Source: Alphaproteobacteria bacterium
Lineage (GTDB): Bacteria > Pseudomonadota > Alphaproteobacteria > Rs-D84
Length of the DNA stretch: 44,498 nt
Direction of reading: 5' to 3'
Assembly (NCBI GenBank): GCA_024402765.1
Contig: JAKSTC010000008.1
Location: forward strand, 1 to 44,498
Positions 3,987 to 38,094 of this stretch are shown piece by piece. Within the stretch, counting starts at the first letter, position 1. Each line of letters starts with the position of its first letter. Under the pieces are notes generated by a model, which saw nothing but the letters and a program-made list of their open reading frames with translations, did no database searches and was not told where the DNA came from. Both the position numbers and the translations under genes were made by a program.

Positions 3987-4715
3987 TTATTGTTTTTCAT
4001 ACACATCGGCACAGTATTTTTTACCATCAAACATTGTGCATAAACCATGTTCTGTGCGTCGTCCCACCGGCATAAAAGCGACATAGTTTCCGGTATGCAA
4101 CAAATGCCCACATTGATCAATATTGGTCGCACCTGCCACCGACAACAAGCCGTTTGGGCATGGTGTGCATGGTTCGTTACCAACAAAATCTTTATATGTA
4201 TTTGGTGGGCATAGAGTACATTCCCATATTGCAGGCAATATGTATTCACCATACGGTTCATACGACGATGTATCAAAATTACATACGGTATCGTCCCGTG
4301 GTGGTGTCCAATACGGGTCTGTTGCACGTTGATAGTACAAAATTACACCAGACATTGCTTGCTTGAAAGATGCTGCAGTTGTATAATTTGTATCAACAAT
4401 ACAAACATAATTTTGTACCTGTTTTACTTCTCCATTATTTCCGCCAAACACATGTAATGCATCTGTAACTTGATATTTAGAAGTATATAATGCACTTGCA
4501 CCACTTGTTTTTGATATAAAATCCGATATATTCGCATAAAATGGATTGTTTGCTATTGAAGGATGTCTTATCCAATTCAAACTTCCTAAATCAACACAAC
4601 CACCTAGACCCTGAGTTATTTTATATCCATATCCAACTGGACATTCATCGTTGGCAAATGTGCTAAAACAAAATATACATGATAAAAATGTCAAAAGTAT
4701 GCACCGAAGCAACAT
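3987..4715 (-). CDS. Exported Cys-rich protein with leader RNA
   Basis: This 242-residue protein has a signal peptide ending near STFA, then NDECPVGYGYKI. The middle has no recognisable fold. From about residue 165 there is a Cys-repeat module (WECTLCPPNTYKDFVGNEPC then TPCPNGLL) of the ephrin-receptor/GCC2-GCC3-like type. The last 43 residues (CGHLLHTGNYVAFMP to ADVYEKQ) are nearly identical to the C-terminus of the gene cut by the right edge (44336-44498), so this is a reused C-terminal domain. AGGGAGA precedes ATG 4715. Its mRNA begins with a structured leader of about 240 nt (4716-4954). Function unknown; surface or periplasmic location inferred. Confidence 0.8.
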   Translation of the reverse strand: MLLRCILLTFLSCIFCFSTFANDECPVGYGYKITQGLGGCVDLGSLNWIRHPSIANNPFYANISDFISKTSGASALYTSKYQVTDALHVFGGNNGEVKQVQNYVCIVDTNYTTAASFKQAMSGVILYYQRATDPYWTPPRDDTVCNFDTSSYEPYGEYILPAIWECTLCPPNTYKDFVGNEPCTPCPNGLLSVAGATNIDQCGHLLHTGNYVAFMPVGRRTEHGLCTMFDGKKYCADVYEKQ

Positions 4716-4954
4716 ATAAACTCTCCCTTATATTTTCTTGGTGGTGGCGCATAAATGCGTGGTAAATACGCCACCAAAAAAACCACCGATATGTGTCGAG
4801 TGGTTGGAGGTTAGTAACAATTTAAGTCGAAATTGTGCGCCTATTCTTTATATTCAGCAACCCTCCAACCAAATTTAGTTGGAGATTTTTTACGTCCATT
4901 TTCAGACGCGACTTAACGGGTTACTACACCCCATCACAACACTCTATTGTGACG
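4716..4954 (-). promoter_or_regulatory. Structured leader RNA, copy 1 (attenuator-like)
   Basis: This minus-strand 5' leader contains, in order: a hairpin (4947-4952 with 4934-4939); the 5' strands of two long-range stems, TAGTAAC (4920-4926) and TTAAGTCG (4909-4916); a hairpin (4893-4908); a CTCCAAC/GTTGGAG hairpin (4878-4884 with 4863-4869); the loop GAATATAAAGAATA (4842-4855); and the 3' strands CGACTTAA (4822-4829) and GTTACTA (4812-4818). Next come CCTCCAACC (4802-4810), a hairpin AACCAC/GTGGTT (4800-4805 with 4781-4786) with U7, and a GGTGGCGTAT hairpin (4766-4775 with 4743-4752). Copy 2 at 22121 has the same architecture with different stem sequences. It resembles a riboswitch or attenuator; no known class is recognised. 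Confidence 0.75.
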
Positions 4955-4960
4955 GCACCT

Positions 4961-4969
4961 ATTATACCA
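4961..4969 (-). promoter_or_regulatory. Extended -10 promoter of leader RNA copy 1
   Basis: TGGTATAAT on the minus strand (4961-4969) predicts a start near 4954, exactly where the first hairpin of the leader begins. A weak TTCCAA lies 17 bp upstream (4984-4989). Confidence 0.5.
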
Positions 4970-22120: not shown

Positions 22121-22373
22121 CCGTATCGATAGGCGTTATCGGTATGGGGCGTAAAGACCTCTAAATTCAAGTTACCTGAAGTTTTCAGGTGTGAAACAAA
22201 CTCCAACTATGGGTTGGAGGGCGGCGAATATAAAGAATAAGCCCGCTATTTTCTTGAATTATAGTCTTTAACCTCCAACCACTCGAGAATAAAATCAGTG
22301 GTTTTTTTGGTGGCGTATTTCCACGCATTTATACGCCACCACCAAGGATTAAAACCGGGGGGACGAAAGGAAA
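22121..22373 (+). promoter_or_regulatory. Structured leader RNA, copy 2 (attenuator-like)
   Basis: Elements in order: hairpin 22121-22131/22137-22147; 5' strands TAAAGAC (22152-22158) and AATTCAAG (22164-22171); hairpin ACCTGAA/TTCAGGT (22174-22190); CTCCAAC/GTTGGAG hairpin (22201-22219); invariant GAATATAAAGAATA (22226-22239); 3' strands CTTGAATT (22253-22260) and GTCTTTA (22264-22270); CCTCCAACC (22272-22280); hairpin AACCACT/AGTGGTT (22277-22303) with T7; and hairpin GGTGGCGTAT/ATACGCCACC (22309-22318, 22331-22340). GGTTGGAGG (22212-22220) can pair either locally or with CCTCCAACC, which would break the hairpin in front of T7. Pairing with CCTCCAACC while the long-range stems persist would make a pseudoknot. 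Confidence 0.78.
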
Positions 22374-22982
22374 ATGAAACGATTGTTTTTGATTTTGTGT
22401 TTAATAATAATATGCAATACATCATACGCAGATATTGCATCAGTGGGCTATGTGGATAGCGTTGTTGCGCCTATACAGGATAGTATTTCAAACATTGATT
22501 CAATAAAACAGGATAAATTACCGAATCCACCCAATAATAATGGAATATATAAACTGGTTTGGAACGGCAATACTGGACAAATTGTGTGGGAATTTGAACA
22601 ATATTCATTAACCTGTACACCCAACACATACGACATCGGGTTTAGTCAGTGCATAGACCCAACGATAGAGGGAACAGACTATACATACAATGCGGGTGCG
22701 ATGACGTGGAAAACAGTATTTCCATACGGAAATGTATCGGGTGTTGCGGTGTGTAACGACACATCGGGCAGTTATGCTGTATCATCAACAACGGAACAGG
22801 TAGAAACTGGTGGTGTGATGTGTTGGTGTAAGATGACACATCCGGCTACCTCAAATTGGGTGTTCGACGCCGCGTACTCGTCGTCTTCCGTTTGCGCGGA
22901 CGGTTGCGCGTACGCCTGCGGGCGCCTCGTCCAGAACTACTCGGACTTTCGTTCCGGCGTTTTTTCGTCGGTCGGTCAATAA
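22374..22982 (+). CDS. Exported protein with A-poor, variable-looking C-terminus
   Basis: Start ATG 22374 with GAAAGGAAA upstream. It is 202 residues. The signal peptide (MKRLFLILCLIIICNTSYA) and the next DIASVGYVDSVVA are almost identical to the 38095 protein. A short heptad-like region with IKQDKLPN is followed by a Cys-containing middle domain. The last 41 codons (22857-22979) share with 38095 the pattern C-A-x-x-C-A-x-x-C-G, then S-D-x-R-S-x-V-F. In this stretch only 11 of 123 bases are A, GC is about 63%, and no codon but the last ends in A, unlike the rest of the gene. This resembles a variable repeat of a diversity-generating retroelement target. Ligand-binding surface protein is an inference. 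Confidence 0.8.
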   Translation: MKRLFLILCLIIICNTSYADIASVGYVDSVVAPIQDSISNIDSIKQDKLPNPPNNNGIYKLVWNGNTGQIVWEFEQYSLTCTPNTYDIGFSQCIDPTIEGTDYTYNAGAMTWKTVFPYGNVSGVAVCNDTSGSYAVSSTTEQVETGGVMCWCKMTHPATSNWVFDAAYSSSSVCADGCAYACGRLVQNYSDFRSGVFSSVGQ

Positions 22983-38004: not shown

Positions 38005-38094
38005 CTGTGGAAATCTACGGTTTTTACGGTGGCGTATTTACCACGCATTTATACGCCACCACCAAAGATTAAAACCTGTGGGGGGACGAAAGGA
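38005..38094 (+). promoter_or_regulatory. Leader element copy 3: terminator-like hairpin plus GGTGGCGTAT hairpin
   Basis: CTGTGG/CTACGG (38005-38010, 38015-38020, two G-U pairs) with T5 is followed by GGTGGCGTAT/ATACGCCACC (38028-38037, 38051-38060), then the binding site AAAGGA. The second hairpin is the same as in the leaders at 4716 and 22121. The upstream pseudoknot region of those leaders is absent; the AACCTAGGTT repeats stand in its place. Confidence 0.65.

Follow-up and report, generated by a model that had tools for sequence, protein, structure and literature searches.

Introduction

C4 antisense RNA and the c4-a1b1 RNA have been catalogued in Proteobacteria and phages (PMC2864571), and in the record of phage P1 the elements a1, b1, c4, a2, b2 and icd are annotated in that order. 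Termination together with structural switching has been described at loci of the C4 kind, namely those of IsrK and of phage P4 CI/seqA (PMC4825925). In Xanthomonas, sRNA-Xcc1, an RNA of 88 nt mapped by RACE (PMC2996969), is located upstream of symE in integron cassettes (PMC12444791). Here, these systems are compared with a leader RNA of the alphaproteobacterial order Rs-D84, to which Candidatus Enterousia belongs, a group whose genomes measure about 1 Mb or less and whose members have been proposed to be symbionts or parasites (PMC12306168). The DNA that was analysed, hereafter the window, is a stretch of 44,498 nucleotides (contig JAKSTC010000008.1, assembly GCA_024402765.1) containing two copies of this leader, which an initial annotation had described as a novel structured RNA. 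The leader belongs to the C4 antisense RNA/sRNA-Xcc1 architecture and represents a known device in new use.

Anatomy of the leader RNA

Two long-range stems, different in sequence between the copies and perfectly paired in each, had been reported in the initial annotation, and both were recovered with the same strands in both copies, copy 1 reading on the minus strand (Table 1). The interval 4716-4954, which had been taken as one leader RNA, does contain the RNA but also a separate 33-nt repeat hairpin and the ribosome-binding site (RBS). In each copy the elements follow one another in the same order, i.e. a sigma70-like promoter, P0, P7 with the P1 5' strand, the P2 5' strand, P3, P4, P5, P6 with the P2 3' strand, the P1 3' strand, c and the terminator; sequences resembling -10 and -35 elements, as judged by eye, also lie upstream of other copies. 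P0 is the counterpart of the first hairpin of c4-a1b1 when its topology is set against RF03163 on phage P1. Strand a (CTCCAAC) pairs with GTTGGAG of strand b, and the terminator hairpin AACCAC..GTGGTT reuses the last bases of c and is directly followed by seven T residues.

Two features had previously gone unnoticed. In terms of a C4-type system, each long-range stem is a pairing of a guide with its target, namely a/a1 and b/b1, and two hairpins cross these stems while a third alternative helix overlaps the intrinsic terminator. P7 crosses P1 and P6 crosses P2, forming a putative double pseudoknot in which linkers of about 2-3 nt stand beside loop helices of 6-8 bp; judged from these lengths, kissing-type pseudoknots that coexist would be compatible with the RNA, and P6 and P7 could instead be alternative folds.

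Table 1. Positions of the leader RNA elements and adjacent features in the two window copies.
Feature	Copy 1 (minus strand)	Copy 2 (plus strand)	Remarks
Whole RNA or element	4776-4953	22121..22308
Sigma70-like -10 element	GTATAATAG, 4959..4967		Directly 5' of the RNA; read from sequence
P0, 5' hairpin	4933..4953	22121-22148	Fold
P7 hairpin	GGGG..CCC, 4918..4932	22146-22161 (P7/P1)	Loop holds P1 5' strand; covaries
P1 5' strand	TAGTAAC, 4920-4926	TAAAGAC, 22152-22158	a1-like target
P2 5' strand	TTAAGTCG, 4909..4916	AATTCAAG, 22164-22171	b1-like target; covariation
P3 variable hairpin	4893..4908		Fold; copies differ in its size
P4 hairpin (a:b)	4862..4884	22201-22220	Pairing and covariation
Strand a	CTCCAAC, 4878-4884
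Strand b	GGTTGGAGG, 4862-4870
P5 hairpin	4835..4861	22220-22246	GAATATAAAGAATA A-rich loop; first hairpin of C4-type unit; covariation
P6 hairpin	CAATT..AATTG, 4818..4835	22246-22264	Loop is the P2 3' strand
P2 3' strand	CGACTTAA, 4822-4829	CTTGAATT, 22253-22260	C4 'b' guide
P1 3' strand	GTTACTA, 4812..4818	GTCTTTA, 22264-22270	C4 'a' guide
c strand	CCTCCAACC, 4802..4810	22272-22280	Pairs with b as C4 closing stem; overlaps 5' arm of terminator
Intrinsic terminator	AACCAC..GTGGTTTTTTT, 4776..4805	22277-22308	T-run in relatives; stem covaries
Repeat hairpin B	4743..4775	22309..22340	Between terminator and RBS; found also without leader
Downstream gene	3987..4715	22374..22982	After copy 1: 242 aa, signal-peptide-like N-terminus, Ephrin_rec_like cysteine-rich domain; after copy 2: 202 aa, signal peptide MKRLFLILCLIIICNTSYA..., no Pfam family

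Fold stability and covariation

The view of the element as a structured RNA was borne out by folding, as copies 1 and 2 were more stable than their dinucleotide shuffles (z -5.1 and -5.2, respectively; 0/200). Among 99 model-aligned homologues the whole structure was 93.4% paired compared with 71.1% upon shuffling, and pairing dropped to 33-47% when the columns were slid by one to three. The covariation initially noted between two copies extends to both stems across this set, with P1 being 98.1% paired and P2 92.5% paired, and with changes on both sides at 7/7 and 8/8 pairs, respectively; in two alignments the P1 3' strand pairs with its 5' strand in 98-99%. P5 and the terminator stem covary as well (99- and 93-row alignments), double changes occur at all 35 pairs of the broader 93-row alignment, and P4 was 96.8-97.7% paired with double changes in 7/7 pairs (alignment A6).

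Since the alignment had been fitted to the structure, helices outside the model were also tested. The b:c stem was 98.7% paired, with double changes at 5/9 pairs, a result reached by 0/500 shuffles; its outer pair is found as G-C (71), U-A (16), U-G (3) and A-U (2), and the b base of this pair changes along with c, not with the base next to a. P7 occurs as GGGG/CCCC, GAGG/CCTC, GTGG/CCAC, CAGG/CCTG, GGAG/CTCC and GGAA/TTCC, and in an alignment-free count its observed pairing was reached by 0/2000 shuffles, full 4-bp stems numbering 54 versus 28 upon shuffling in a wider set, likewise counted without alignment. P6 gave 77% on fixed columns, which are misaligned at this helix, and was thus assessed by alignment-free counts of exact complements (79/98 versus 35 shuffled) and of complements including G-U pairs (86/90 versus 41 shuffled, wider set). 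Strands are shared among a:b, b:c and the terminator, helices that are mutually exclusive and that all covary; b:c excludes an intact terminator because c supplies the terminator 5' arm. These compensatory changes, together with unrelated downstream genes, uphold the earlier statement that conservation operates at the RNA level.

The proposal that an invariant loop, GAATATAAAGAATA, could be a ligand or protein site was not supported as it stood, as this loop is identical in copies 1 and 2 but varies across the family, with GAATATATTGAATA and GATATATCAAAATA among its variants. The internal loop of P5 resembles a UAA/GAN-type motif whose two strands exchange places from one genus to another (5' GAATA..AATAA 3' versus 5' AAAATAA..GAATAT 3', e.g. 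L115 versus L123), and five loci (L128, L129, L296, L300 and L302) carry a TATGTCC..AAAAG loop in its place. A conserved leader peptide was considered and rejected, the ATG at the P0/P7 junction not being conserved, and so was anti-Shine-Dalgarno mimicry through CCTCC in c, a motif that relatives have lost (CTTCCAGC, CTCCCAGTCC).

Distribution and downstream genes

A BLAST search with copy 1 pointed to 24 places in its own genome, some of them representing hairpin B alone. Using a covariance model built from 13 own-genome copies (R1), 19 copies were found in this genome of 0.92 Mb and more in relatives, i.e. in 33 of 34 genomes of the same genus (at most 43 per genome) and in other families of the order, and these further copies keep both stems. 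A broader model trained on Alphaproteobacteria only (R2) detected the element in 136 of 142 genomes of the order and, in a class-wide sample of 385 genomes, in 34, including other alphaproteobacterial families; that most class genomes lack the element attests to the specificity of the model. Named records with the core pattern correspond to gut and termite alphaproteobacterial metagenome-assembled genomes, among which Candidatus Enterousia. On the strength of this kinship, the window itself probably also stems from Enterousia.

Two elements, or three in the case of L189, precede a single gene in tandem at L107, L175, L176, L189, L208, L223, L224 and L226, every element having a terminator of its own. 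At L008/L075 (own genome, C6:13750) the 3' half is identical to that of L010/L074 and the 5' half is like that of L005/L077, a chimeric appearance that leaves two mismatches in P1 and suggests, from the sequence, that copies may have recombined. Three contigs classed as viral (IMG/VR: L264, L265 and L266) contain the element, which is identical in two of them. An integron attC site, considered in view of the paired variable stems, was rejected because promoter, terminator and RBS are spaced as in a leader and the copies lie singly at scattered places; a MITE/REP element was also rejected, given non-conserved ends and the presence of compensatory changes.

The genes that follow copies 1 and 2 are unrelated, as had been claimed, although both encode predicted exported proteins, which had not been mentioned. 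As an overall figure, the gene begins about 15-35 nt beyond the terminator; in most copies a Shine-Dalgarno (SD) sequence and a start codon lie 10-40 nt past the terminator, or 60-70 nt when hairpin B is inserted. A signal- or transmembrane-like N-terminus was assigned by a crude home-made rule to 52/64 downstream proteins with a length of 90 aa or more versus 7/36 window genes. The Pfam families encountered downstream include HTH domains, outer-membrane barrels, surface antigen, YadA anchor, Stealth, GmrSD and ABC transporters; overall, the downstream genes are unrelated and encode mainly exported proteins and small HTH proteins, and no common pathway theme was seen in this Pfam survey.

Hairpin B is a near-identical palindrome of about 33 nt, GGTGGCGTATTTCCACGCATTTATACGCCACC, that is present a third time in the window at 38028-38060 (plus strand). 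Related signal-peptide genes have it immediately before their RBS, whether or not they also carry the leader RNA; own-genome loci show it in 19 different contexts, in one of which (L017) it stands in tandem. Two genes that have hairpin B only, L016 (C6:7584) and L018 (C23:38019, i.e. window position 38019), share an identical upstream block of about 150 nt with AACCTAGGTT repeats and a hairpin in place of the C4-like leader, and this block is an alternative 5' module before the same gene family.

Relationship to sRNA-Xcc1 and C4 RNAs

The designation of the leader as novel stands in part: Rfam misses the window copies, but their architecture is that of C4 and sRNA-Xcc1, and relatives pass the cut-off of RF02221. 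At curated cut-offs no Rfam family, known riboswitches and leaders included, matched the window. For sRNA-Xcc1 (RF02221) nothing reached the gathering cut-off of 53 bits in the window or in its own genome, the best score being 36.2 bits (L020), and for C4 (RF01695) there was no hit in the window, own-genome copies or class-level loci, the window copies staying below the cut-off. Kinship with sRNA-Xcc1 was tested from both sides. RF02221 scored above its cut-off in the class-level members L303 (66.2 bits) and L298 (56.2 bits), both of which are also found by R2, and R2 in turn matched the RF02221-type loci L313 (E 5.6e-8) and L311 (E 1e-5) over its full length (model positions 1-152). A search of phage P1 with R2 did not find c4 and gave no credible hit; kinship with C4 is therefore based on topology and on the bridge formed by sRNA-Xcc1. 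On phage P1, the Rfam models C4 and c4-a1b1 match, and isrK does so weakly. RF02221 is not placed in the C4 clan of Rfam.

The RF02221 model comprises b:c, P5 and P6, which is the 3' half only, and the b:c stem closing around the two hairpins P5 and P6 is present in the leader family as it is in sRNA-Xcc1. Searching 398 Pseudomonadota genomes provided 30 RF02221 loci that were read (L304-L333, from outside Alphaproteobacteria), and these also have a 5' half with P7/P1 and P2 strands. In these loci the a guide has an upstream perfect complement of 7.5 nt on average versus 4.75 shuffled (sd 0.22), and the guide in the P6 loop one of 6.8 versus 5.2 (sd 0.17). A second complement pair flanks the SD downstream (5.8 versus 4.5 and 6.5 versus 5.0 shuffled), as exemplified by L322 with CCGAAAAccccaccAAACAG upstream and CCGAAAAGGAGcAAACAGccATG downstream. 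sRNA-Xcc1 and the Rs-D84 leaders share b:c, P5, P6, both guides and a 5' half with target strands, but in the sRNA-Xcc1 loci both target strands recur on either side of the SD belonging to the following gene, whereas downstream complementarity in the Rs-D84 copies equals that of shuffles (4.49 versus 4.36; 5.12 versus 5.05), without a2/b2 at the RBS. The position of the T-run also differs, as it lies between b1 and the C4 unit in 23/30 RF02221 loci versus 4/98 Rs-D84 copies, and after the C4 unit in 2/30 versus 89/98. Given that the RBS targets are lost and the T-run has moved to the 3' side, a translational antisense system appears, on this comparison, to have been rewired into a cis transcription attenuator. 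At L318 (24-1193) a CRISPR array with CRISPR-DR4 repeats stops about 300 nt upstream of the sRNA-Xcc1-type element.

As in C4/c4-a1b1 of phages P1 and P7 (RF01695, RF03163), the leaders have upstream strands complementary to the guides, with a1 in a hairpin loop followed by b1 and then by a C4 unit made of a closing stem and two hairpins, and short variable a/b pairs likewise set specificity (PMC5320573). Unlike these phage systems, the leaders lack a2/b2 and the icd/ant genes, and their terminator overlaps c. The phage P4 CI RNA/seqA and Salmonella Gifsy-1 IsrK systems, compared here by their description, resemble the model proposed for the leaders in that a leader RNA uses alternative structures, and its pairing with a target further upstream, to decide on premature termination (PMC4825925), but they act in trans and within prophages, and IsrK has its own terminator before the C4-like part. 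Group 1 C4-like sRNAs of Acinetobacter baumannii are also numerous per bacterial genome; in contrast to the leaders they are described as processed sRNAs acting in trans, and their description, as consulted here, does not include cis attenuation of adjacent exported-protein genes (PMC5320573). The phrase 'C4 antisense' together with Alphaproteobacteria was not found in a literature search covering few subscription journals.

Proposed mechanism and alternative explanations

The leader is probably a cis-acting transcription attenuator built on the C4/sRNA-Xcc1 antisense-RNA architecture. Its own promoter would start a transcript whose 5' half holds an a1-like target strand in the P7 loop and a b1-like one, and whose 3' half would form the C4-type unit, i.e. 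b:c, P5 and P6 with the b guide in its loop, followed by the a guide. At the level of predicted pairing, guides are shown to match targets of the same transcript, and b:c cannot coexist with either P4 (a:b) or an intact terminator. In the nested fold (P1, P2 and P4), which we infer to be the default, c would be free, the terminator would form and transcription would stop about 180 nt in; in the C4 fold, b:c would break the terminator and the downstream gene would be transcribed, making b:c the putative read-through or ON state. The nested/terminator fold was calculated at -60.1 and -62.6 kcal/mol in the two copies versus -48.8 and -50.4 kcal/mol for the C4 fold, values in which pseudoknot pairs are uncounted. 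Candidate triggers that may shift the balance are a trans RNA, a protein, RNase P processing or a metabolite. Multiplication of this module has placed one copy in front of each of tens of unrelated genes. Most guide-target pairs occur in a single copy within a genome, as judged from an alignment with some rows out of register at P2; this would be expected from avoidance of cross-talk or from mere drift of the pairs.

Action in trans, as for phage P4 CI RNA on seqA, is an unlikely alternative in which RNase P would free a C4-like unit, starting with GGU at b, that acts on a1/b1 strands in its own or sister transcripts to bring about termination. The C4 unit does begin with GG, as does RNase P-processed C4 (PMC5320573), termination through pairing with an upstream target has a precedent in P4 (PMC4825925), and private guides would suit this reading; however, a genome-wide search for a trans target of copy 1 returned the element itself only, its second hit being the element's own reverse complement, a2/b2 complements are not enriched downstream, and the intrinsic terminator overlaps the C4 unit, which points to cis action. 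It is rather improbable that the leader is a metabolite riboswitch in which a small ligand, bound by the double-pseudoknot domain, selects among a:b, b:c and the terminator. A compact core with pseudoknots, a conserved motif in the P5 internal loop, the overlap of alternative helices with the intrinsic terminator as in a terminator expression platform, and tandem copies before one gene, as known for some riboswitches, would all agree with ligand binding, but the topology matches an antisense guide-target system, loop nucleotides vary and downstream genes are without a pathway theme. Moreover, the repeated target strands around the RBS of RF02221 loci are not predicted by a ligand model.

That the copies are remnants of phages or of mobile elements (MITE-like repeats) without host function is disfavoured and seems very improbable. 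Their multiplicity and the occurrence of relatives in phages (Rac-like, Vibrio), plasmids and the three IMG/VR contigs are in line with such an origin, yet compensatory changes are found in all helices, the spacing of promoter, leader, terminator and RBS is conserved, and the element has been deeply retained across the order in genomes of 0.9 Mb; furthermore, neither conserved ends nor target duplications were seen and the associated genes are mostly not phage genes.

Conclusions

Three separately described RNAs, namely phage C4/a1b1, the integron sRNA-Xcc1 and the Rs-D84 leaders, are joined here as one architecture, of which the sRNA-Xcc1 model of Rfam is shown to hold the 3' half only. More than 100 natural variants with co-varying guide and target make the choice between C4-type folds testable, and the leaders offer a way into the study of gene control in Candidatus Enterousia and related uncultured gut bacteria with reduced genomes in the order Rs-D84. 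We tentatively raise the possibility, which we hold to be on the doubtful side, that a phage-immunity RNA has been domesticated as a genome-wide regulatory layer, with 20-40 C4-type attenuators gating surface or secreted proteins in genomes below about 1 Mb. If so, private guide-target pairs would gate genes independently, possibly by RNA-RNA competition, and this layer may stand in for transcription factors that have been lost, or allow the surface to be varied.
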